Source of the DNA: Pseudaquabacterium pictum | Lineage (GTDB): Bacteria; Pseudomonadota; Gammaproteobacteria; Burkholderiales; Burkholderiaceae_C | Direction of reading: 5' to 3' | Length of the DNA: 64,000 nucleotides | NCBI RefSeq assembly: GCF_005403045.1 | Contig: NZ_BJCL01000003.1 | Location: 62,001-126,000 of the forward strand | Part shown: positions 18,116 to 64,000 of the stretch, piece after piece | How the letters are laid out: every line of letters starts with the position of its first letter | How positions within the stretch are numbered: the stretch's first letter is position 1 | Notes under the pieces: generated by a model | The model's input: the letters and a program-made list of their open reading frames with translations, nothing else | The model's database searches: none | What the model was told of the DNA's origin: nothing | Translations under genes and position numbers: made by a program

Positions 18116-19566
18116 TGGGATTCAAGTTCGTCATCCTCTGGACCGACGTGGCGCTGTGGACCTTGTTCGCAGCCATCGCCGGCTACGGCATCCGCGTGGC
18201 GCGGCACGACACCCTGCGTGCCACCTGGCGCCGCGTGCTGCGGGATGCGCCGGCCATGTGCTCGGCCCTGGTGCTGGGGCTGTTCGTCATCGTCACCCTG
18301 CTCGACAGCGTGCACTTCCGCCGCGCCCTGCCGTCCACCGAGGCGCAGGCCGCCGGCAAGGTGTTCTACGACACCCGCACCGAGAGCCTGCTCGACCTGG
18401 TGCTGGCCCGGCCGATCAGCATGCGCGAGACCACCTACTCGGCGCCGCTGGCCTACCTGGCGATCACCAAGCAGACCGTCACCCGCGATGGCCAGACGGT
18501 GCGCGCGCTGCCGCGGCTGATCCACGGCGGCGCCCACCTGACCGACCCCGCCAGCCAGTGGGAGGCCGACCTGTGGCGGCGCGGCGGCACCGGCGCCATC
18601 GCCGGCCTGGGCATCGCGCTGCTGGCCAGCCTGGGCGCGGCAGCGCTGCTGCGCCGCGCCCATGGCGGCACCGGTGCGGCCTGGCGCGCCATCGCCGCCG
18701 ACCGCACCACCTACCCTGTGCGTGCGCTGCTGCTGACCTGTACCGTGGTGTGCGTGGCCGGCGGCGCGGTGGTGGCGCTGGCCGGCCACTACCATGTGTT
18801 CGGCACCGACCGCACCGGCAACGACGTGCTGGTGCAGACGCTCAAGAGCATCCGCACCGCCTTCGTCATCGGCATGCTCAGCACCCTGGCCACGCTGCCG
18901 ATCGCGGTGGTGCTGGGCATCCTGGCCGGCTGGTACCGCGGCTGGGTGGACGAGGTGGTGCAGTACCTCTACACCACGCTGTCGAGCGTTCCCAACGTGC
19001 TGCTGATCGCCGCCTGCGTGCTGATGGTGCAGGTGGCGCTGGACAAGCACCCCGAGTGGTTCGAGACCGGCGCCGAGCGGGCTGACCTGAAGGTCTTCCT
19101 GCTGTGCGTGATCCTGGGCGTGACCGGCTGGGCCACGCTGTGCCGCCTGGTGCGGGCCGAGACGCTGAAGCTGCGCGAGCTGGAATTCGTGCAGGCCGCC
19201 ACCGCCTTCGGCGTGCCGCCGGCCAGGATCATGGGCCGCCACATCCTGCCCAACGTGATGCACCTGGTGCTGATCACCACGGTGCTGAACTTCAGCGACC
19301 TGATCCTCTACGAGGCCGTGCTCACCTACGTGGGCGTGGGTGTCGACCCCAGCACCAGCAGCTTCGGCGGCATGATCAACCTGGCCCGCAGCGAGATGAG
19401 CCGCGACCCGGTGGTGTGGTGGAGCTTCGCCGCGGCCTTCGGCTTCATGGTGGCCCTGGTGCTGGCGGCCAACCTGTTTGCCGACGGTGTGCGCGATGCC
19501 TTCGACCCGCGGTCACGCGCCATGCGGCCGCGCATCCTGGGCCGCAAGCCGGCTGCCAAGGCCTGA
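18112..19566 (+). CDS. ABC transporter permease (OppC/DppC type) with enlarged N-terminal half
   Basis: 484 residues against roughly 300-340 for ordinary OppC/YejE proteins. The C-terminal 250 residues are the standard permease core: YHVFGTDRTGNDVL, the helices after it, the EAA loop EFVQAATAFGVPPARIMGRHILPNVM and TYVGVGVDPSTSSFGGMI. The extra N-terminal part contains additional membrane helices near residues 8-24, 45-65, 160-183 and 205-225 and a soluble loop between about 75 and 155. Start is the ATG at 18112 (a second ATG follows directly), overlapping the previous stop. The enlargement looks genuine, because the frame and codon use continue smoothly. Confidence 0.88.
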   Translation: MMGFKFVILWTDVALWTLFAAIAGYGIRVARHDTLRATWRRVLRDAPAMCSALVLGLFVIVTLLDSVHFRRALPSTEAQAAGKVFYDTRTESLLDLVLARPISMRETTYSAPLAYLAITKQTVTRDGQTVRALPRLIHGGAHLTDPASQWEADLWRRGGTGAIAGLGIALLASLGAAALLRRAHGGTGAAWRAIAADRTTYPVRALLLTCTVVCVAGGAVVALAGHYHVFGTDRTGNDVLVQTLKSIRTAFVIGMLSTLATLPIAVVLGILAGWYRGWVDEVVQYLYTTLSSVPNVLLIAACVLMVQVALDKHPEWFETGAERADLKVFLLCVILGVTGWATLCRLVRAETLKLRELEFVQAATAFGVPPARIMGRHILPNVMHLVLITTVLNFSDLILYEAVLTYVGVGVDPSTSSFGGMINLARSEMSRDPVVWWSFAAAFGFMVALVLAANLFADGVRDAFDPRSRAMRPRILGRKPAAKA

Positions 19567-19571
19567 ACGCC

Positions 19572-21398
19572 ATGCTCGCCATCGATCAATTGCAAGTGGA
19601 ACTGGATGCCGAGGCCGGCATCGTGCGCGCCATCGACGGCCTGGCCCTGGCCATCCGCCGGGGCGAGACCTTCGCCCTGGTGGGCGAATCGGGCTGCGGC
19701 AAGAGCATGACGGCGCTGGCCCTGATGCGCCTGCTGCCCGACAGCGGCGCGGTCACCGGCGGCGACATCACGCTCGACGGCGACGACCTGCTGGGCATGC
19801 CCGAATCGGCCATGCGCAGCGTGCGCGGCGGCCGCATCGGCATGATCTTCCAGGAGCCCGGCACCAGCCTGAACCCGGTGCTGACGGTCGGCCAGCAGAT
19901 GCGCGAGACCATCGAGACGCACACCGCCCTGCGCGGCGATGCGGCCCGCGCCAAGGCCATCGACTGGTTGCGCCGCGTCGGCATCCCCGAGCCCGAGCGC
20001 CGTTTCGACGACTACCCCTTCCGCATGAGCGGTGGCCAGAAACAGCGCGTGATGATCGCGATGACGCTGGCGGCCGAGCCCGACTACCTGGTGGCCGACG
20101 AGCCCACCACCGCGCTCGACGTCACCATCCAGAAGCAGATCCTCGATCTGTTGCGCGACCTGCAGCGCGAGCAGGGCATGGGCCTGCTGCTGATCACCCA
20201 TGACCTGGCGGTGGTGGCCGGCATGGCCCACCATGTGGCGCTGATGTATGCCGGCCAGATCATCGAGGTGGCGCCCGCGGCGCAGTTCTTCGCCAGCCCG
20301 CGCCACCCGTATGCCCAGGCCCTGCTGCGGGCGCTGCCCGACAGCGGCCGCCGTGGCCAGGCGCTGGCCGCCATTGCCGGCACCGTGCCGCCGCTGACGC
20401 AGGCCTTCACCGGCTGCCGCTTCGCGCCGCGCTGCGGCTTTGCCCAGCCGGCCTGCCACAGCCAGCAGCCGGCACTGGCGGGGCCGGCGGGTGACCAGGT
20501 GCGCTGCCTGCTGCTGCAGCCCGGCGGACCGGGGCTGGTGGCGCCGGCTGCGGCGCCGTTGTCCACGGCCGCGCCGGCGGCCGTTGCCGCCGGGGCAGGC
20601 ACCACACCGCTGCTGCAGGTCACCGGTCTGAGTGTCAGCTTCCAGCTGCGCAAGGGCTTCCTGCAGAAGCAGCCGCCGCGCTTCGATGCGGTCAAGGGCG
20701 TGTCGTTCCAGGTGGCCGCCGGGCAGACGCTGGCGCTGGTGGGCGAATCGGGCTGCGGCAAGACCACCACCGGCAAGGCCATCGTGCAGCTGCTGCGTGG
20801 CCAGGCCCAGATCAACGGCCAGGCACTTCTGAACGGTCAGAACCTGTTCGACCTGGAAGGCGCGGCGCTGCGCGAAGCCCGCCGCACGGTGCAGATCATC
20901 TTCCAGGATCCGTTCGCCAGCCTGAACCCGCGCATGCGGGTGGCCGAGATCCTCGACGAAGGCCTGGCCGCGCTGCAGCCCGGCACCACGCCGGCCGACC
21001 GGCGCCAGCGCATCGAGGCGATCGCCGAGCAGGTGGGCCTGCGCCGCGAGGCGCTGCAGCGCTGGCCGCATGAGTTCTCCGGCGGCCAGCGCCAACGCAT
21101 CGCCATCGCCCGCGCACTGGCGGTCAACCCGAAGCTGATCGTCTGCGACGAGCCCACCTCGGCGCTGGACGTCAGCGTGCAGGCCCAGATCCTGAACCTG
21201 CTGCGCGAGCTGCAGCGCGAACTGGGTGTCAGCTACCTGTTCATCACCCACAACATCGCGGTGGTGGAGTACATCGCCGACACCGTGGCGGTGATGCGCG
21301 CCGGCCGCATCGTCGAACAGGGCGCCTGCGCCGATGTGCTGGAGCGGCCGGTGGACGACTACACCCGCACGCTGCTGGCGGCCGTACCTCGGCTGTAA
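19572..21398 (+). CDS. fused double ABC ATPase of the peptide importer (OppD-OppF/YejF type)
   Basis: 608 residues carrying two complete nucleotide-binding domains in one chain. The first has Walker A GESGCGKS, signature MSGGQKQRV, Walker [13 protein letters not shown] and switch LLITHDLAV, followed by the iron-sulfur-like Cys cluster region [14 protein letters not shown] common after OppD domains. An Ala-rich linker at about 320-345 joins the second: [29 protein letters not shown] and FITHNIAV. It energises the two permeases encoded upstream. The ATG lies five bases after the permease stop. Reading the frame further upstream only shadows that permease. Confidence 0.95.
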
Positions 21399-47609: not shown

Positions 47610-48596
47610 TCAGCTGGTGGTCTTGAATCCGACGCGGGCGATCAGGTCGCGCCAGCGATCGCGCTCGTCCGCCAGATGCTGCGTCAGGGCGCCGGTTGCG
47701 AGATCGCCCGGCGCGAGCGCGAGCGACAGCAGTTGCGCAGCCATCTGCGGTGCCCGAAGCGATGCCTGGATGGCTGCGGCCAGCTCGTCCGCCTTGGCCG
47801 CCGGTGCCTTGGCCGGCAGGAACATCGCAAAGGCCTCTGTCAGCGGCGTGCACGCGATGCCCTGTTCGAGCAGGGTCGGGACCGTGTCCAGCCCGGGCCA
47901 GCGCGCCTTGCTGGTCACGGCCAGTGCACGGATGGCACCGCTCCGCAGCAGCGGCACGGCGGCGGCCGACACCACCAGCGCCGCGGGGAGACCACCTTCC
48001 TGCAGTTCGCGCAGCAGGGGTGCCGTGCCGGGATAGGCGTCGGCCCGCAGGTTCAGGCCCGTGGCCTGGCCCAGCTGCAGCCCCAGCAGATGCGGCGCGG
48101 AACCCAGGCCTGGCAGGCCGTAGTTGTTGCGGCCCGGGTTGTCCTTGACCCACTTCACATAGCTGGCCGCATCCTGCACCTCGGGCGGCATGTGCTTGCC
48201 GACGCACAGGACGAAGGTGAATTCAGCGATCGAGGCGACAGCCTGCAAGGATGTCCGCGGGTCGGCCGGGAGCTTGCGCACCTGGGGCAGCAGCGTGGCG
48301 AGCGAGGTCGGCACGACCATGGCGACACTGCCGTCGGCCGGTGCGTCCATCAACTCGCGCAGGGCCCGGGAGCCCGACTGGCCAGGCAGGTGCGTGAGCC
48401 TGGACGGCAGGGTCGGGCGGTATCGGCCGCGCAGTTCGACAGCCAGGACGTCGTAGATGTCGTCCATCGACGTGCCGGGCGCGAAGCCGTAGAGAACGCG
48501 GGACTCGGGGGTGTCCGCGCGGGCGCTGCCCAGGCCTGTTGCCGCGCTGGCGGCCAGCGTTTGAAGCAGCTGGCGGCGGCGCATCGTGAAGCTCAT
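47610..48596 (-). CDS. Bug-type (tripartite tricarboxylate transporter family) substrate-binding protein, second copy
   Basis: 328 residues. A Tat-like signal (TMRRRQLLQTLAASAATGLGSARA) is followed by the Bug fold: VLYGFAPGTSMDDIYDVLA, LPGQSGSRALRELMDAPADG, LGSAPHLLGLQLGQATGLNL and ALAVTSKARWPGLDTVPTLLEQG. Start is the ATG at 48596, with GGGAG eight bases upstream; an earlier in-frame GTG/ATG region lacks support. Bug proteins bind small carboxylates or other ligands in the periplasm, often without linked membrane subunits. It is the last gene of the train that begins with the giant surface protein, 120 bp after the first Bug gene. Confidence 0.85.
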   Translation of the reverse strand: MSFTMRRRQLLQTLAASAATGLGSARADTPESRVLYGFAPGTSMDDIYDVLAVELRGRYRPTLPSRLTHLPGQSGSRALRELMDAPADGSVAMVVPTSLATLLPQVRKLPADPRTSLQAVASIAEFTFVLCVGKHMPPEVQDAASYVKWVKDNPGRNNYGLPGLGSAPHLLGLQLGQATGLNLRADAYPGTAPLLRELQEGGLPAALVVSAAAVPLLRSGAIRALAVTSKARWPGLDTVPTLLEQGIACTPLTEAFAMFLPAKAPAAKADELAAAIQASLRAPQMAAQLLSLALAPGDLATGALTQHLADERDRWRDLIARVGFKTTS

Positions 48597-48716
48597 GTCA
48601 AGTCTCCCATGGTTGGCTGGGTGGGGCGCCGACATCCCTCGGCTGTGGGTCGCCAGGGCTGGCGAGGTCGGATCGGCGGCGGGCAGCGGTGCAACCCAGG
48701 TTGGCCCGGCCCAGGC

Positions 48717-49703
48717 TCAGGCCGTTGTGCCGAAGCGCAGTTCCTGCGTCAGCGACTCGAAGTAGCGGCTCTCGCGACGCAGCCGTTCGATCAGCGCGTC
48801 GCCCGTGACGAGGTTGTTCACGATGTTGGCCAGCGCCGGGTTGCTGGCGGGATCCCTGCCAGGCAGGGACTTGCCCAGGCTGTCGACGAGCCGCTGCCGC
48901 ACAGCTGGCGACAGCGTGGCCGGACCGGCCCACACATACCAGCCCGTGGCTTCCAGATCCTGGAAACCGGCTTCGGAGAAGGTGGGCACATCGGGAATCG
49001 TCGGCCAGCGCGCCTTGCCCACCACGGCCAGCGGCCGCAGGCGCAGGCCATCCGCCCCGCGCAAGCTGTCCACCGGCATGATGGCCGCCGCGAGCATGGC
49101 GGACGCGAGGTCGCGGCGAATGGCGTCGGAGCTGGCGTAGCTGACGGGCCGGATGTTGGCGCCCGCCAGCCGCGCCAGCATCGTGCCCACCAGGTGCGGG
49201 ATCGAGCCGAACTGGGTGGAGCCGTAGTTGCGGCTGTCGGGGTTGTCGGCCACCCAGGCCAGGTACTCCTTGACCGTGGTGACCTGGGCGTCGACATGCG
49301 GCGCCACGGCCAGCACCCAGGTGAAGTCGGCCAGTGCCGCCACCGGCGTCAGGTCGCTCAGCGGGGCGTAGCGGCCTCTGCTGGCCGCCAGCTGCGGCGT
49401 CAGCGTCAGCAGGCTGTTCTGCGTGTGCATCAGCAGCGAGCCATCCGGCGGCGCCTTGCGGATGGTGTCGACGAAGCGCAGCGGCCCACCCACGGTCTGG
49501 CTTTCGGCCGCCAGTGGCGGGGTGTAGTGCGGTCCCTTCAGGCCGGTGACCTCGCGCGCGAAGCGGCCCATCACCGAATCGGTGGGCAGGTTGAACAGCA
49601 GGCGGCCCTTGTCTGCGGCGGTCTGCGCACGGGCCCAGTCAAGCGGCAGCGCCGCGGCGCCCAGGCTGGCGCACTGGCGGAGGAATTGTCGACGGTGCTT
49701 CAT
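48717..49703 (-). CDS. Bug-type substrate-binding protein, first copy
   Basis: 328 residues. A Tat-like signal (KHRRQFLRQCASLGAAALPL, ending WARAQ) precedes a Bug-type core: VGGPLRFVDTIRKAPPDGSLL, VAPHVDAQVTTVKEYLAWV, FGSIPHLVGTMLARLAG and PLAVVGKARWPTIPDVPTFSEAGF. AGGAAG lies six bases before the ATG. It is only 22 bp after the M50-HlyD gene, so cotranscription with that export cluster is likely. The second Bug protein is related in the same motifs but clearly diverged. Ligand unknown; no TctA/TctB subunits are nearby. Confidence 0.87.
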   Translation of the reverse strand: MKHRRQFLRQCASLGAAALPLDWARAQTAADKGRLLFNLPTDSVMGRFAREVTGLKGPHYTPPLAAESQTVGGPLRFVDTIRKAPPDGSLLMHTQNSLLTLTPQLAASRGRYAPLSDLTPVAALADFTWVLAVAPHVDAQVTTVKEYLAWVADNPDSRNYGSTQFGSIPHLVGTMLARLAGANIRPVSYASSDAIRRDLASAMLAAAIMPVDSLRGADGLRLRPLAVVGKARWPTIPDVPTFSEAGFQDLEATGWYVWAGPATLSPAVRQRLVDSLGKSLPGRDPASNPALANIVNNLVTGDALIERLRRESRYFESLTQELRFGTTA

Positions 49704-49725: not shown

Positions 49726-51804
49726 TCAGGTCCGCAGTTCGGCGATCAGCAGTCGCCAGACCTGGCGCCATGCCAGCGCGCCAAGGCTTTCAGGGGCGGC
49801 ATCGACCAGCACCAGCCCGCGTTGCAACATGGCCAGGCGGTCGCTGCCGACCGGGCCTTCGATCTCAAAGCGCACGCTGAACTGCCCGTGCACCGGCACC
49901 AGCCGCCCCTTGGCATCCACTTGCGCCGCGATGCGGCCGCCCTGGGTGGAGGCCAGCATGCCGGGCGTCAACTGCTCCGCCGCCACGTCGTCGATCTCGA
50001 CCAGGCGCACGGGCACGGTCGGCATCGACGGGTCGTCGGGCACGAAGCGGCCGTGCGTGCCCGTCTGCACACGGCGCAGCTCGCGTTCGGCGAGGTAGCC
50101 GCGGACGTCCTGGCGGTCGCCGTGCAACACGCGCAGCAGCGTCTGTCCGGGGCGCACCCACATGCCGGCGCGCAGGGCCGGCGCCAGGTCGGCCGTGGCG
50201 CCCTCACTGGCGGCGCGCACGGCCATCAGCGCCTGCCGGGCTTGCGCGCCCTCGCGGTCGCTCCTGGCCGTCACCACCTGCGCAGCCAGGACGCGGCTGG
50301 CCTGCTGGTCGCGCGCGCTCGCCGGCGCGCGGTCCAGCCGCACGTGGGCCAGGGCCTCGTCCACCGCAGCCGCCTCGCCGCGGCGCTCCAGCTCCGGCGA
50401 GACCAGCTGCAGCAGCGGCTGTCCGGCGCGCACGCGCTGGCCGTCCACGACCCACAGCGCTTGCACCAGGGCGGGCTCGGGCGCCTCGACCACGGTCTGT
50501 TGGGTCCAGCCCAGCACCGCGGGCACGGCCACGCTGCGGTCCAGCGGCCATGCCAGCAGCAGCGCCAGCCCGGCCAATGTCGCGGCCATCCGCAGGCGCG
50601 TCAGTGTCTGGCTGAACAGGCCCAGCTGCCGCCCGTGCTGCAGCCGGCGCCAGATCGGCAGCAGCAGCAGCACCCAGACCGCCACGGCCGCCACCGGCAG
50701 CACCAGGGTCGTGCCGACGAAGCGGTAGACCAGCCAGGTGACGGCCGCGTACAGCACCAGCCGGTAGAGCCAGACCGCGTGGCCAAACAGCGCCAGGCCC
50801 ACGGCCAGGCGCCGCGGCGGCATTTCCGGTGGCGGCTCGGCCGGCCCGAAGAGCAGCCGTGACCAGCACCAGCCGGCGTAGGCCAGCGAGCGCGGCTGCA
50901 GGTTCTCGATGCCCAGCGCATCGCTGAGCATGTGGTAGCCGTCAAACCGCCCCAGCGGATTCAGGTTGACGGCCAGGCTGGTGGCCAGGCTGGTGGTGGC
51001 CAGCATGGCGGCGGTGGTGCGCGCCGCACCGTCGGGCAGGATGGACCAGGCCAGCACGGCCCAACCGGCCACCCAGGTTTCCGCCAGCATGCCGGCCGCG
51101 CCCACCAGCACGCGGCCACGGCGGCTGGGCAAGGCGTGGGTGCCGCTGGTCTCGGTGTAGACCATGGGCAGGCCCATGGACACCGCCAGGCCCATGTGGG
51201 GGACACGCACGCCCTGCGCCACGCAGGCCCAGGCATGGCCCAGCTCGTGCACCACCTTCATCGCGACGAGGGCAAGCAGGAAGCCCAGGGCGCCCCAGGG
51301 GGTCAGCAGGGCTTGCACGCCGTCGCGGAACGCGTCCCACTGCCGGCTGGCCATGGCCAGGCCCAGGCCGGTGGCGGCCAACCAGATGAGCAACCAGGCC
51401 GGCGACACCAGCGTGCGCACCAGTGGCAGCGTGCGCTCCAGCAGGCCCTGGGGCCGCAACACGACGAAGCGCCACTGCAGCGCGGCAAACACCCGCTGCA
51501 GCGCGGTGGGCGGCCGGGGTGGCTCGGCGTCCAGCACCAGGTGGTGCAGCCGCAGGAACGCCAGCAGCGCCTGCAGGCGCTGGGTGTCCAGCCGGCGGCC
51601 TTGCCGTTCCAGTGCCTGGCCCAGGCGTGTGCTGTCGCCCTGGTCCCAGTGCGCCAGCAATTGCCGGTCATCGTCGCTGATGACGAAGTGCTGGTCGCGC
51701 AGCGGATCGACCAGCAGCCACACGGGCACGCCGTCAGCGCCTGGCGGCCGGGACTTCAGGCGCAGGTCCTGGCGCAAGGGCGGCAGGGTCAGGGGCTTGT
51801 GCAT
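49726..51804 (-). CDS. M50 metalloprotease fused to a HlyD-type adaptor domain
   Basis: 692 residues from the ATG at 51804; an earlier in-frame start at 51852 would overlap the preceding gene. Residues about 15-95 form a PqqD-like winged-helix region. A membrane metalloprotease core follows with the zinc motif HELGH (186-190) and NPLGRFDGY (282-290) supplying the third ligand, among about eight membrane helices. After the helix at 406-420 a periplasmic lipoyl/HlyD part appears: VVEAPEPALVQALWVVDGQRVRAGQPLLQL and a short coiled coil. Known M50 enzymes cut proteins within membranes. The fusion suggests processing coupled to export of a neighbouring product, perhaps the giant surface protein; this is inference. 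Confidence 0.85.
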   Translation of the reverse strand: MHKPLTLPPLRQDLRLKSRPPGADGVPVWLLVDPLRDQHFVISDDDRQLLAHWDQGDSTRLGQALERQGRRLDTQRLQALLAFLRLHHLVLDAEPPRPPTALQRVFAALQWRFVVLRPQGLLERTLPLVRTLVSPAWLLIWLAATGLGLAMASRQWDAFRDGVQALLTPWGALGFLLALVAMKVVHELGHAWACVAQGVRVPHMGLAVSMGLPMVYTETSGTHALPSRRGRVLVGAAGMLAETWVAGWAVLAWSILPDGAARTTAAMLATTSLATSLAVNLNPLGRFDGYHMLSDALGIENLQPRSLAYAGWCWSRLLFGPAEPPPEMPPRRLAVGLALFGHAVWLYRLVLYAAVTWLVYRFVGTTLVLPVAAVAVWVLLLLPIWRRLQHGRQLGLFSQTLTRLRMAATLAGLALLLAWPLDRSVAVPAVLGWTQQTVVEAPEPALVQALWVVDGQRVRAGQPLLQLVSPELERRGEAAAVDEALAHVRLDRAPASARDQQASRVLAAQVVTARSDREGAQARQALMAVRAASEGATADLAPALRAGMWVRPGQTLLRVLHGDRQDVRGYLAERELRRVQTGTHGRFVPDDPSMPTVPVRLVEIDDVAAEQLTPGMLASTQGGRIAAQVDAKGRLVPVHGQFSVRFEIEGPVGSDRLAMLQRGLVLVDAAPESLGALAWRQVWRLLIAELRT

Positions 51805-51818
51805 GGCCGGCGGCGCCC

Positions 51819-53378
51819 TCAGTAGCCCAGCGACTGGCGCAGCGCCGCCCACGGGCGGTGGAGCAGCTGCAAGGCCAGGGGCACGTCATCGCCATAGAGG
51901 CGTGCGGTGCCGCGTCCACCGATGCGCGGCACATGGCCGTCGGTGGGCTCGGCCCAGACGGTGTAGCTGCTCTCGGTCGCACCCGGCCGCTGCCGGGGCG
52001 TGTACGCCACGCTGGCCACCCGCGCTGCATGGCCGCCCAGCGGGGCGTTGTCCATGTAGACAGCGACCTTGGCGCCGGGCTTGAGCGCCAGCACGTCGTT
52101 GACGTTCATCTCGACGCGGTAGCGCACATCGCGGGGCTCGGCCACCTGCACCAGTTCTTCGCCCACCTGCACCGCCCGGCCTTCCCAGTCGCGGCGGTCG
52201 GTGTAGAGGGCGACGCCGTCCGCCGGCGAGCGCACCACGCTGCGGGCGAGCAGGTCGTTGGCGTAGCCCAGGTTCAGCCGGGCCAGCTTGAGCTCGGCAT
52301 AGGCCGTGGCCAGTTCCTCGCGGGCACTGGGGTCGGTGAAGGCCTGGACGCCCAGGGTGGCGTGCCGCGCCTGGGCGACCGCCACGCGCTGCTGCGCCAG
52401 CACAGCGTCGTTGCGGGCCTGCACATCCTCAAACTGCACCAGCGGCTGGCCGGCCTTCACCGCCTGGTTCGGTGCCACCAGCATGCTGCGCACCGCGCCG
52501 TTCAGCGGCGCGGTGATCAGCACCGGGGCACGCGGCGCCACCTCCAGTGGCGCCATCACGTTGCGCTGCACCGGCACCAGGCCGGCTGCCACCACGGCCA
52601 GCAGCGCTGCAAGGCCCAGGCGCAGCGCGCGGGCCGGCGGCAGGCGCAGCCGCGGATGCCGCTGCAGCGCGTGCCAGGCGTGGCCGTAGGTCTCGCCCAG
52701 GCGCTGCAGCAACACGGCCTCGGCCGGGCTGTGGGCCTGACTGCGCAGGCACAGCATGCCGGCACCGATCTCGCCGTCACGGTCCGGCATCGGCACCCAG
52801 TAGGCATGTGGCGTGCTGCAGTCCGCCAACGCATGCCGGGTGGCACGGTCGGTGTCCTGCAGCGGGTCGTGCAACTGGTGCGCGGCCGACCTGGCCAGGT
52901 CGCCGCGGCCGTGCAGCGTGCGCAGCTGGCCTTCGAGCGCCCGCACCAAGGCGGCTTCACGGTCCACGTCGGGCACCGCACTGTGGGCCACGCAGGCCCA
53001 CTGGTGGCTGCGGTGGCGGCGGCGGAACACCAGCACCAGGTCGCTGCGCACCAGGGGCTGGGTGGCGTTGCACAGGTGGTGCAGCAGAGCGGCCTCGGTG
53101 TCGAGGCCGCGCACCTCCCGCTCATGCTGCAGCAGGCGTAGCGCAGGGCTGTGGGTGGTGGTCGCGGGCGCGGGCGCAGGGCCCGGTGTCGGTGCGGGTT
53201 GTTCCGGTCCCACCTGGGGGATCTGCATGGCCGACCGCAGCGCGCGGCGCAGCACGTCGTCTGCGCGCAGGGCCGATGCGGCAGGGGCAGGCGCCGCCGC
53301 CGCCGTGGCGGTGGTCGGGTCCGGCGCGGACGCGGGCGCTGCCGCCGGCTCAGTGTGTTCGACCAGGGAAGCTTGCAT
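51819..53378 (-). CDS. HlyD-type adaptor with GAF-like cytoplasmic region
   Basis: 519 residues. An Ala/Pro-rich start (1-80) precedes a GAF-like region (about 80-240; LLHHLCNATQPLVRSDLVLVFRR, YWVPMPDRDGEIGAGMLCLRSQ). One membrane helix (252-270) and a periplasmic adaptor follow: APLNGAVRSMLVAPNQAVKAGQPLVQFED as lipoyl half, a short hairpin, and RSPADGVALYTDRRDWEGRAVQVGEELVQVAEP. The GAF assignment is tentative and based on pattern. It overlaps the preceding HlyD gene by 29 bp and is 14 bp before the M50 gene. A sensor-adaptor joining cytoplasmic state to export is possible. Confidence 0.78.
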   Translation of the reverse strand: MQASLVEHTEPAAAPASAPDPTTATAAAAPAPAASALRADDVLRRALRSAMQIPQVGPEQPAPTPGPAPAPATTTHSPALRLLQHEREVRGLDTEAALLHHLCNATQPLVRSDLVLVFRRRHRSHQWACVAHSAVPDVDREAALVRALEGQLRTLHGRGDLARSAAHQLHDPLQDTDRATRHALADCSTPHAYWVPMPDRDGEIGAGMLCLRSQAHSPAEAVLLQRLGETYGHAWHALQRHPRLRLPPARALRLGLAALLAVVAAGLVPVQRNVMAPLEVAPRAPVLITAPLNGAVRSMLVAPNQAVKAGQPLVQFEDVQARNDAVLAQQRVAVAQARHATLGVQAFTDPSAREELATAYAELKLARLNLGYANDLLARSVVRSPADGVALYTDRRDWEGRAVQVGEELVQVAEPRDVRYRVEMNVNDVLALKPGAKVAVYMDNAPLGGHAARVASVAYTPRQRPGATESSYTVWAEPTDGHVPRIGGRGTARLYGDDVPLALQLLHRPWAALRQSLGY

Positions 53379-54159
53379 AACCGCTCATGCCGGGCAGTGG
53401 AAGGGGCGTGCTGGCGTTGGGCTGCTGCAGCTTGCCGACGATGCGTGCAGTGCGGCTCACCGGGTCGATGCTGGGCGTGACCCGCTCGATCTGTCCCTTC
53501 CAGCGGCCGCCGGTCTCGTCGACGGTCAGCACCAGCGGTGCGCCAGGCTTCAGACGCACCAGCCAGGTCGAAGGCACCAGGATGTCCACCTCGAGGTCGT
53601 CGGGATCGACGATCTTCAGCAGCGGCTGGCTCGGCGACACCGCTTCGTGCGCGCGGGCCAGGTGCTGCACGACGCGGCCCTGGAAGGGCGCAACGATCCT
53701 GCAGTCCTTCACCGTGGCGTTCAGCGCCTCGGCCTCGGCCGTCACCTTGTCGAGTTGCGCGATGGACACCAGCAGGTCGTTCTTGCCGATGGACTCGAAG
53801 CGGTCGAGCTCGCGGTTGGTGTCCACCATCTTGCTCTGCACCTGCACTGCAGCGGCCGCCGCTCTGGCCTCGGCCAGCTGGCGTTCGCAGTCGAAGGCCA
53901 CCAGCAGCGTGCCTTCGTTGAAGGCCTGGCCCTCCCGCACCGGCATCTGCGTGATGCGCGCCGCCAGCCGCGAGGACAGCGTGGCCTCACGCACGGCGCG
54001 GACGATGGCCCTGGCCTGGCCGCTGCCACCGGTGGCGGTGTCCACCGCCAGCCTGGACGCGGGCGTCGGCACGGCGCCAGCGCTGGCTGTCTGCGCATGG
54101 GCGGCACCGCCGGCCATCGCGGCCGCCAGCAGCAGTGCAAGAAGCGGTGGATGCATCAT
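53350..54159 (-). CDS. periplasmic adaptor protein (HlyD/RND membrane-fusion type)
   Basis: 269 residues. A signal peptide (HPPLLALLLAAAMAGGAAHAQ) leads to a soluble periplasmic protein with the biotinyl-lipoyl halves VREATLSSRLAARITQMPVREGQAFNEGTLLVAFD and CRIVAPFQGRVVQHLARAHEAVSPSQPLLKIVD around a helical hairpin, then a beta-barrel domain. Such adaptors bridge an inner-membrane exporter and a TolC channel. Its start overlaps the TolC-family gene by four bases, so it is translationally coupled to it. No matching RND or ABC pump lies beside it. Confidence 0.88.
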   Translation of the reverse strand: MMHPPLLALLLAAAMAGGAAHAQTASAGAVPTPASRLAVDTATGGSGQARAIVRAVREATLSSRLAARITQMPVREGQAFNEGTLLVAFDCERQLAEARAAAAAVQVQSKMVDTNRELDRFESIGKNDLLVSIAQLDKVTAEAEALNATVKDCRIVAPFQGRVVQHLARAHEAVSPSQPLLKIVDPDDLEVDILVPSTWLVRLKPGAPLVLTVDETGGRWKGQIERVTPSIDPVSRTARIVGKLQQPNASTPLPLPGMSGYASFPGRTH

Positions 54160-55685
54160 GAAGCCTTGGGCAAGGGGGGGAGCGACAGCGCACGGTCGGT
54201 CCAGTGCTCCTCCAGCTTGTCGGTCATCTCCGACAGTGGCTCGGAGCTGTCCAGCTTGAGATCGAAGTTGTCCAGACCCATGGACGCGTACAAATTGGCA
54301 TAGGCGTTCTGCAGGTCGGCGTAGGCGTTGTCGTAGCGCACCTCGGCCAGCACGGCGTTCATTTCCTCACGGACCAGGTTCTGCTGGCTGATGGCCCGGG
54401 CCTTGAAGGCGCCGCGCGATGTCTCGGTCAGCCGGGCCTGCACGCCGTTGGACTGGCGCACCACGGTCAGTTCCTGGGCCAGGCGCACGAAGCGCACGCG
54501 GGCGACATGCACCTGGGTCATCACCGCCATGGTCAGCGCCAGGTCGCGCTGGTCCTGCACATCCAGTTCGGCCAGCAGCACCGCCTTCTCGCGTGGCCGG
54601 CGGAACACCGACATCACGCTCCAGCTGACGCGGGCACTGAAGTCCAGCCAGTCCTTGTTGTACAGGAACTGGTTGCTGTCGTGGTTCAGCCCCAGCACCG
54701 CCTTCACCGAGGGCAGGCTGCGCAGCAGGGAGGCGCGGTCTTCCAGCTCGGTGATCTGACGCCGGTGGCCGGCTTCGTGCATCTCGGGCCGGAAGCGCAG
54801 CGCGGTGAGCACCATCTCGTTGGCCGAGCCGGGCAGCTCAGGCACGACGTCGGTGCGGTCGGGCAGCACCAGCTGGTAGCTGGTTTCCGGCGTCAGGTTC
54901 ATCAGCGCCGCGAGCTGGTTCTTGGCCAGCGTCAACTCGCGCTGCAGCTTCTGCACCTCGGCTTGCACGCCCAGCAGGTCGCGCTGGAAGGCCAGCACCG
55001 CCAGCGGCGACGCCACGCGCCGGCTCTCCAGCGCTTCGGCCTGGGCGAGTGCCTTCAAGGCCAGGCCTTCGACCTGGGACAGCCGCTTGAAGGTGCGGTC
55101 GGCACTGACGGCACGCCAGTAGGCGGTGCGCACGTCCTCGACGATCCGCGTCATGACCTTGCGGCGGCGCTCTGCCGCGATGCGTGCCTCGCTGGACTGC
55201 TGGAGGCTGCGCACGTAGGCCATGCCGAAGTCCAGCACGTCCCAGCTGGCCCGGATCTCGCCGTTGGTGCTGCGGCGTTCGCTGGAGGTGGAGGGCTCCA
55301 GCGACTGCTTGCCGCTGAGCAGCGAACGGCTGCGCGCGCCGGCGTCGTTGTCGCGGCCTGCAAAGCCGCTCTGCGCCACCAGGTCCGGCAGCATGTCCAG
55401 GCGCCGCAGGTCCAGCTGCTTGAGCTTCAGCGCCTCGTCCATGGCCTCGATGCGGGCGTCGAGGTTGTACTTGATGGCCCGCGCCATGGCCTCGTACAGC
55501 GAGATCGGACCATTGACCGGTTCTTCCCGGGTGATGGTGTCGCGCAGGCGCTGGAAGGTGTTCACGGCGCGCTGGTCGTGGTTCACGGGGGCCGGCATGG
55601 TGCTGCAACCTGCCAGCCCGAGCAGGGCTGCCGTGCCGCTGGCAGTGAGCAGTCGGCGGCGGGCGAGGATCGGCGGGAGGTTCAT
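54156..55685 (-). CDS. TolC-family outer-membrane lipoprotein
   Basis: 509 residues. A lipobox (LLGLAGC, Cys27) after an Arg-rich start indicates a lipid-anchored outer-membrane channel. Two TolC-type repeats of long helices and short strands follow: ISLYEAMARAIKYNLDARIEAMDEALKLKQL, LRRLDMLPDLVAQSGF, and in the second half LRFRPEMHEAGHRRQITELEDRASLLRSLPSVKAVLGLNHD and QNAYANLYASMGLD. It lies 34 bp after the giant protein gene and overlaps the periplasmic adaptor gene by four bases. It is the likely exit duct for the cluster. Confidence 0.88.
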   Translation of the reverse strand: MNLPPILARRRLLTASGTAALLGLAGCSTMPAPVNHDQRAVNTFQRLRDTITREEPVNGPISLYEAMARAIKYNLDARIEAMDEALKLKQLDLRRLDMLPDLVAQSGFAGRDNDAGARSRSLLSGKQSLEPSTSSERRSTNGEIRASWDVLDFGMAYVRSLQQSSEARIAAERRRKVMTRIVEDVRTAYWRAVSADRTFKRLSQVEGLALKALAQAEALESRRVASPLAVLAFQRDLLGVQAEVQKLQRELTLAKNQLAALMNLTPETSYQLVLPDRTDVVPELPGSANEMVLTALRFRPEMHEAGHRRQITELEDRASLLRSLPSVKAVLGLNHDSNQFLYNKDWLDFSARVSWSVMSVFRRPREKAVLLAELDVQDQRDLALTMAVMTQVHVARVRFVRLAQELTVVRQSNGVQARLTETSRGAFKARAISQQNLVREEMNAVLAEVRYDNAYADLQNAYANLYASMGLDNFDLKLDSSEPLSEMTDKLEEHWTDRALSLPPLPKAS

Positions 55686-55719
55686 CGGAGGCTTTCAGCG
55701 GGGGCACCAGGCTGGACGG

Positions 55720-64000
<8,281 letters not shown>

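Follow-up and report, generated by a model that had tools for sequence, protein, structure and literature searches.

The subject of this study is a train of five minus-strand genes in a 64,000-nucleotide stretch of Pseudaquabacterium pictum DNA (the window; bases 62001-126000 of contig C3 in a genome of 6.14 Mb and 64 contigs), which suggests a protein-export route so far undescribed. Only the 3' part of its first gene, encoding a giant repeat protein, lies inside the window (55720..64000, 2759 codons); the contig read past the window gives a complete protein of 3287 aa, with ~1.6 kb of the gene beyond the window and a start near window-equivalent position 65583. Just outside the window, on the same strand, lie the giant's leader LESRVMFDA (about 65447-65472) and its DUF4347 domain (about 64837-65289; 3.6e-41), which sits near the N-terminus and is followed by long runs of Big_9, cadherin-like and He_PIG repeats according to Pfam. 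Next comes a TolC-family outer-membrane factor (54156..55685; Pfam OEP, 3.3e-25) with, by eye, a lipoprotein-type N-terminus (LAGC), and then a periplasmic HlyD/RND-type adaptor (53350..54159; Pfam HlyD), in which a transmembrane segment was looked for and none was found. In the fourth protein (GAF-HlyD; 51819..53378), a single transmembrane segment (residues 252-270) separates a GAF-like part from an adaptor part. The fifth gene (49726..51804, with an alternative in-frame GTG start at 51852) encodes a fusion of an M50, or site-2 type, membrane protease with a full HlyD adaptor (M50-HlyD).

The giant and TolC genes are 34 bp apart, TolC and HlyD overlap by 4 bp, HlyD and GAF-HlyD overlap by 29 bp, and GAF-HlyD and M50-HlyD are separated by 14 bp, counted from the ATG at 51804. 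The gene coordinates thus confirm the order, strand and spacings read in a first-pass annotation of the same DNA. The domain make-up given there was likewise borne out, with Pfam HlyD_3/HlyD_D23 in three proteins, OEP in the TolC protein and Peptidase_M50 in the product of the last gene. The GAF assignment came by way of family members: Pfam GAF was not detected in the window's own GAF-HlyD protein, and among 33 aligned members GAF matched four and GAF_2 two.

The M50 domain carries the zinc-binding motif HELGH (51235..51249, minus strand), whose H, E and H are invariant in 32 of 32 aligned sequences, as well as the second active-site motif NLNPLGRFDG (50938..50967, minus strand; NxxPxxxxDG), and its profile matches RseP (7w6x, 2.4e-4) and MJ0392. 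Judging from the predicted model and a fold search, the adaptor part has the full adaptor fold with hairpin; the matches of that search, run with the full M50-HlyD model, cover the adaptor part only and barely probe the N-terminal and M50 parts. In the N-terminal domain (51535..51777, minus strand), our proposed leader-binding part, the predicted element order beta-beta-beta-alpha-alpha-alpha fits PqqD and the recognition element (RRE) of ribosomally synthesized and post-translationally modified peptides (RiPPs). Pfam PqqD matches six of the eight scanned M50-HlyD proteins of a sister clade (clade 2), and the N-terminal domains of clades 1 and 2 align in hhalign (94.8%, E 5e-8).

Conservation of the module

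The M50-HlyD protein was used to search 60 relatives and the GAF-HlyD protein to search 300 genomes of the order. An M50-HlyD alignment was run against 84,980 species genomes and gave at least 196 relatives, of which the best 80 were kept. With short loci omitted, this yielded 151 wide loci (numbered L; genomes of the order are numbered G), made up of a first set of 51, from which the profiles were built, and a second set of 100, with 80 from the species-genome search and 20 from DUF4347 matches. A clade-1 M50-HlyD protein, called at more than 500 bits, was present in 115 loci, 113 of them distinct at 95% identity.

The co-occurrence that the first-pass annotation had put forward as a check was found in these loci: GAF-HlyD accompanied M50-HlyD in 112 of the 115 and adjoined it in 109, and a leader was seen in 37. 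HlyD was present in 89 and TolC in 77; many loci are cut by contig or fetched-stretch ends, including many of those without TolC or HlyD (not every one was checked). The window's gene order is also the commonest, with TolC adjoining HlyD in 70 loci and HlyD adjoining GAF-HlyD in 81, while in 13 loci (L173, L175, L179, L181, L188, L190, L197-L201, L203 and L205) a leader-bearing giant lies downstream of the M50 gene. Both HExxH and NxxPxxxxDG occur in 113 of the 115 clade-1 proteins. The carriers are Proteobacteria, Nitrospira and Desulfobulbaceae; those named, some of them metagenome-assembled genomes, include Chromobacterium, Duganella, Paraburkholderia, Variovorax, Phytobacter, many Pseudomonas, Methylomonas, Azospirillum, Magnetospirillum and Magnetococcales besides Nitrospira and Desulfobulbaceae themselves. 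Since the module is conserved across 115 loci, a chance arrangement is excluded. What the window holds would be one case of a widespread, leader-linked, putative export module with an active-looking intramembrane protease instead of the usual motor.

A blind search for further conserved neighbours found none in more than 19 of the 115 loci; RND and MFS models were not run. The commonest extra neighbour was, by eye, a PAS-type protein (19 of 115; e.g. L141:19087-20967), and EAL-like ends, likewise seen by eye, adjoin the module in L093 and L188, which together with the PAS-type neighbour hints at control by cyclic di-GMP. A small protein resembling a phage tail collar (MdpB-like, by eye) lies near the module in 13 loci (e.g. 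L131:13129-13785), and in 12 loci a GNAT-like acetyltransferase open reading frame (ORF), again by eye, is found a median 47 bp downstream of the M50 ORF (e.g. L188:12079-12627). In the window itself, two TctC-type (Bug-like) binding proteins (47610-49703) follow 22 bp after the M50 gene. Three such ORFs match in L040, a locus of the same genus, and few other loci match, so these genes look like a genus-level addition. A double-ATPase oligopeptide-type ATP-binding cassette (ABC) protein (19086-21395, plus strand) lies 28 kb away and is unrelated to the module.

Cargo ends and their link to the module

The ends of the cargo are constant, with an N-terminal LEPRxMFDG motif, the leader, and a C-terminal SFxxQL-like tail. 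A strict regular expression for the leader, built from LE.R.(M/L)FD(G/A) as first noticed in early giants, matched 40 of 3157 ORFs of at least 250 aa, one per locus and all within the first 152 residues; the 40 ORFs span 594-3403 aa. Seven of them have no DUF4347-profile match, one of which (L225) shows the domain by eye. In L160, L171 and L183, the head domain that goes with the leader is not DUF4347 but a different one, whose GAxGAF...E-x-GH-like motif looks metalloprotease-like by eye. At the other end, the SFxxQL-like motif, picked by eye beforehand, lies in the last 60 residues of 72 of 79 large ORFs adjoining the module versus 5.9% of random internal 60-mers taken from the same ORFs, and a stricter form of it in 37 of 79 versus 0.7%. 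The 79 are the large ORFs beside the module among the 115 loci, kept even where by eye they are wrong frames or other genes (L040, L093, L178, L188); the locus edge truncates 56 of them at the 5' end, and 18 of the 23 uncut ones carry the leader. The predicted model of DUF4347 resembles CHAT and caspase-type proteases, with His75 and Cys119 conserved, and would place a His-Gly and Cys catalytic pair in a caspase-like fold.

As the leader expression had been shaped partly on the loci tested, the link was checked in whole genomes with a DNA pattern. Module genomes were defined as the 31 of 300 with a strong GAF-HlyD match (best E 1.3e-30 or better; the next genome stood at 1e-15). The pattern occurred in 28 of these 31 versus nine of the 269 others (Fisher 2.5e-28), that is, in 37 of 300 genomes, and the reversed pattern in seven of 300. 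A second match in our own genome (C9:71664-71689) reads LEVRVLFDA and is probably background. Together with the conserved gene neighbourhood, the co-occurrence of leader and module supports the earlier proposal that the five genes act as a single functional unit.

DUF4347, by itself, is spread more widely and was rejected as the key to the module. It is found in 48 of the 300 genomes, namely in 28 of the 31 module genomes and 20 of the 269 others; ten of these 20 carry the sister M50-HlyD clade, and a full M50-HlyD was not found in the other ten, of which the loci of eight were examined (G073, with a weak match, and G105 were left out). The loci of leaderless DUF4347 giants are without M50-HlyD, and leader-bearing giants without a DUF4347 match have it (L050, L160, L171, L174, L183, L195). 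Among 50 DUF4347 ORFs with the 5' end in view, 28 have both leader and module, one is our own (its module lies in the window), three (L051, L220, L221) have the module and an (S/A)AD leader variant, and 18 have neither by the strict expression, although for one of the 18 (L224) the leader is a variant one and the genome encodes a sister-clade M50-HlyD at another site. Several leaderless giants begin almost directly with DUF4347, and their C-termini differ from those of the leader-bearing giants. Of note, the DUF4347 giants without leader or module (L206-L219) come mostly from genomes with a PrtD-type ABC exporter, and several share a WDF... C-terminal end.

The ending of the leader also follows the M50 clade. 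With a looser regular expression, it was FD(G/A/S) in 37 of 37 clade-1 leaders and (S/A)AD in five of five clade-2 leaders. Three further leaders stand in loci without M50-HlyD: our own (L009, FD) and those of L224 and L225 (SAD), whose genomes both hold the sister clade elsewhere. Such a pairing is as expected if the M50-HlyD protein reads the leader. At least 31 of the 300 genomes encode the sister clade, 30 of them with matches of 260-370 bits and G188 in two pieces; this is a lower bound, as three candidates were scored per genome. Its modules (L047-L059, the 260-370-bit matches) have PqqD in most members scanned and giants with (S/A)AD-type leaders, and often include a separate HlyD of ~640 aa; some genomes hold several copies.

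Favoured reading and its rivals

The absence of an ABC exporter, on which the first-pass annotation had remarked for the cluster, holds for the surroundings as well. The genes upstream of the giant's code for a periplasmic binding protein (divergent), then enolase, a DAHP-synthase-family protein and CTP synthase, and no ABC exporter is among them. A profile built from seven ABC exporters of our own genome, which detect one another at 118 bits or more, was run over the 151 wide loci and the window. None of its matches was a full ABC exporter; they were 16 ABC ORFs, all matching from position 370 onward of the 631 and thus the ATPase part only, and the one inside the window is the oligopeptide-type protein at 19086-21395. 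Of what defines a type I secretion system (T1SS), the cluster has a HlyD-type adaptor with a TolC-type factor, and no ABC exporter encoded with the adaptor.

Composition, conservation, cargo ends, the leader-module link, intact M50 motifs and loci free of a full ABC exporter are what the sequence itself establishes. On this basis, we lean towards the view that the cluster is a dedicated tripartite module for the leader-guided export and surface display of giant repeat proteins, with the M50 protease in the pump's place, and the main interpretation of the first-pass annotation is supported. Secretion, leader binding, leader cleavage, DUF4347 activity and the order of steps are inferred. The PqqD/RRE-like domain of the M50-HlyD protein would hold the leader at the cytoplasmic side, the protein as a whole acting as inner-membrane receptor and gate, and the M50 site would probably cleave or clear the leader within the membrane. 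Two membrane-anchored HlyD adaptors and the soluble HlyD could then form a periplasmic duct to the TolC lipoprotein, through which the giant chain would exit unfolded, and the caspase-like DUF4347 behind the leader may trim or release the giant outside. Candidate energy sources are the proton-motive force, folding outside as a ratchet, and an ABC exporter in trans. More tentatively, and with odds that we would put below even, the module may be a secretion system of its own kind: a membrane protease would stand in for the ABC motor and read the leader with its PqqD-like domain, the protease-adaptor fusion would serve as receptor and gate into the TolC conduit, the caspase-like domain of the cargo would finish the work outside, and two sister versions would exist with matching leaders.

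Several observations weigh against the favoured reading. TolC was not seen in 38 of the 115 clade-1 loci; the leader was seen in 37 of them, and in 36 no adjoining large ORF was found. Five uncut large ORFs lack the leader (L093, L099, L106, L178, L188) and are by eye other genes or wrong or broken frames; in L099 and L188, the leader-bearing giant sits elsewhere in the locus. Three of the 31 module genomes (G133, G194, G222) are without the leader pattern, and nine of the 269 others have it, of which by eye one (G139) has a true-looking leader and the rest look like background. The match in G139 (C112:10846) reads LEQRFMFDG and comes from a fragmented genome in which the module was not detected. 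Moreover, some of the loci tested had also served to shape the leader expression and the C-terminal motif, and absences in the genome searches are soft, with the best three to five candidates scored per genome. Pfam PqqD matched none of 32 clade-1 M50-HlyD proteins. ATPase-only ABC ORFs occur in 11 of the 115 clade-1 loci, at a median 3.8 kb downstream of the M50 gene. Finally, our own genome holds two LssB-type T1SS ABC exporters over the cut-off (C8:271904 and C22:44830), 20 of the 31 module genomes hold a T1SS ABC over at least one of three cut-offs (LssB, HlyB and PrtD models: 693, 726 and 510) and 11 hold none, and secretion by the module is deduced from sequence.

These last counts bear directly on the alternative of type I secretion with a distant motor, in which a LapB/LssB-type exporter would act in trans and the cluster would supply adaptors, TolC and a processing protease. 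An ABC exporter may indeed help in trans, because 20 of the 31 module genomes, our own species with its two LssB-type exporters included, hold a T1SS ABC; besides, the conserved C-terminal tail of the giants sits where T1SS signals usually lie. Both exporters of our own genome, however, already adjoin an adaptor-like ORF of their own (25-37 bits to the adaptor profiles), and the 16 ABC matches in the loci and the window are confined to the ATPase part. Not all genomes below the cut-offs can be counted as T1SS-free: five (G047, G095, G215, G216, G277) cannot, because their LssB-like scores of 620-640 bits come near the cut-off of 693, G097 has, besides a HlyB-like match of 580 bits (cut-off 726), a C39 domain in a further ABC-sized frame, G306 holds a cut PrtD-like piece, and G194 is fragmented. 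Well below all three cut-offs are G128 (one contig, 100% complete; best LssB/HlyB/PrtD 351/437/266), G332 (316/362/232) and G155 (358/425/260), and yet each has the module and a leader-bearing giant. Judged by profile scores, these three genomes make the strongest case that no T1SS motor is needed for the module to work. In addition, a PrtD-type ABC is present in nine of the ten DUF4347 genomes without M50-HlyD versus nine of the 31 module genomes (p 0.001), so that two export routes for the DUF4347 head domain seem to exist, as if alternatives. Taken together, we hold a motor in trans to be rather unlikely. PF03412 was discarded as a test for T1SS, being too insensitive and missing our own LssB exporters; C39-like frames exceeded its cut-off in G097, G155 (276 aa), G254 and G273, and none did in G128, G332, G306, G194 and G000. 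Giants unlinked to the module, several of them at contig ends, were not used as evidence for action in trans.

Alternatively, the giant might cross the inner membrane by Sec or another general route, leaving the module to handle only the outer membrane and leader removal. The most hydrophobic 15 residues among the giant's first 150 overlap the leader (VMFDAAALALAADLS), and M50 proteases usually act on membrane-resident substrates. Yet the leader stretch has charged E, R and D in and around it, its mean hydropathy is only 1.55, no normal signal-peptide core is apparent in it by eye, and two inner-membrane-anchored adaptors would be out of place in a step confined to the outer membrane, which makes this route improbable. 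Still further from what we would expect is that M50-HlyD and GAF-HlyD form an envelope-stress or signalling device that neighbours a giant adhesin by chance and exports nothing. M50 proteases such as RseP do signal, and the profile match to RseP (7w6x, 2.4e-4), the ligand sensing common among GAF domains and the PAS-like neighbour family (by eye; 19 of 115 loci) all fit such a role, but the presence of the leader, its type and the C-terminal tail all track the module, and the full adaptor fold with hairpin and the TolC partner indicate a conduit. We therefore regard this explanation as very improbable.

Giant adhesins shape biofilms and attachment, and their textbook route runs through an ABC exporter. 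Under the favoured reading, an alternative to it is conserved in many proteobacteria and in Nitrospira: a cluster in which an intramembrane protease takes the place of the pump and whose cargo can be recognised from a nine-residue motif, making cargo prediction possible. The question of how a huge chain is moved without an obvious motor thereby becomes directly testable, and DUF4347 gains a possible role as a caspase-like domain in surface giants.

Comparison with known systems

The first-pass annotation could name no established system of this composition, and none came to light in the open-access full texts, as far as their accessible parts go and with subscription journals and preprints not covered: neither the module nor an M50-HlyD fusion used for export is described there, and the leader is not reported as an export signal. 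PsmE of Pseudomonas was rejected as a published instance: the parts of the two papers seen describe an RTX epimerase as the cargo and, after it, three genes for a putative type I system (PMC7716237, PMC10850567), and in the former text HlyD occurs 0 times and the M50 match is part of a digital object identifier. Within the portions available, the methanotroph S-layer system uses an ordinary PrtD-type T1SS and is not the module (PMC13274458), the graspetide paper has no fusion resembling M50-HlyD (PMC8939145), and a review that lists ABC, RND and MFS motors has no case like it (PMC8277102).

Among the closest known systems are the giant-adhesin T1SSs of the LapA/LapBCE and SiiE/SPI-4 type, which share the HlyD adaptor, the TolC-type factor, giant cargo with Ig or cadherin repeats and very few cysteines, and a conserved C-terminal tail. 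Unlike these, the module locus is without a full ABC exporter and has three adaptor-type proteins, an M50 protease-adaptor fusion and a constant N-terminal cargo leader. With M50/site-2 proteases (RseP, MJ0392), the M50-HlyD protein shares HExxH and NxxPxxxxDG in membrane segments, as is expected of a family member, and it scores 132 bits against the daptide intramembrane protease model NF041824 (cut-off 300); unlike all of them, it continues into a complete HlyD adaptor, and TolC and giants are encoded alongside it. The likeness of its N-terminal domain to PqqD and the RRE rests on the modelled element order and on the Pfam matches among clade-2 relatives (6 of 8 scanned, versus 0 of 32 in clade 1), whereas the domain lies within a membrane protease-adaptor and its proposed cargo is a giant protein, not a peptide.

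The leader itself recalls the LEPR-XLL N-terminal motif proteins, a name used in NCBI annotation that also occurs in two open-access papers. Both have LExR and then hydrophobic residues, here at the giants' N-terminus, and clade-2 leaders (e.g. LEPRVLLSAD) come close to that motif, whereas clade-1 leaders end in FD(G/A/S). The LEPR-XLL model was not among the six NCBIfam matches of P0007 at E 0.01, its presence in the library not having been checked. Lastly, the caspase-like head domain differs from the clan CD cysteine peptidases (caspase, CHAT, legumain and the toxin cysteine protease domain) and from the type VI secretion effector Tce1 in its setting, as DUF4347 stands between an export leader and thousands of repeat residues.

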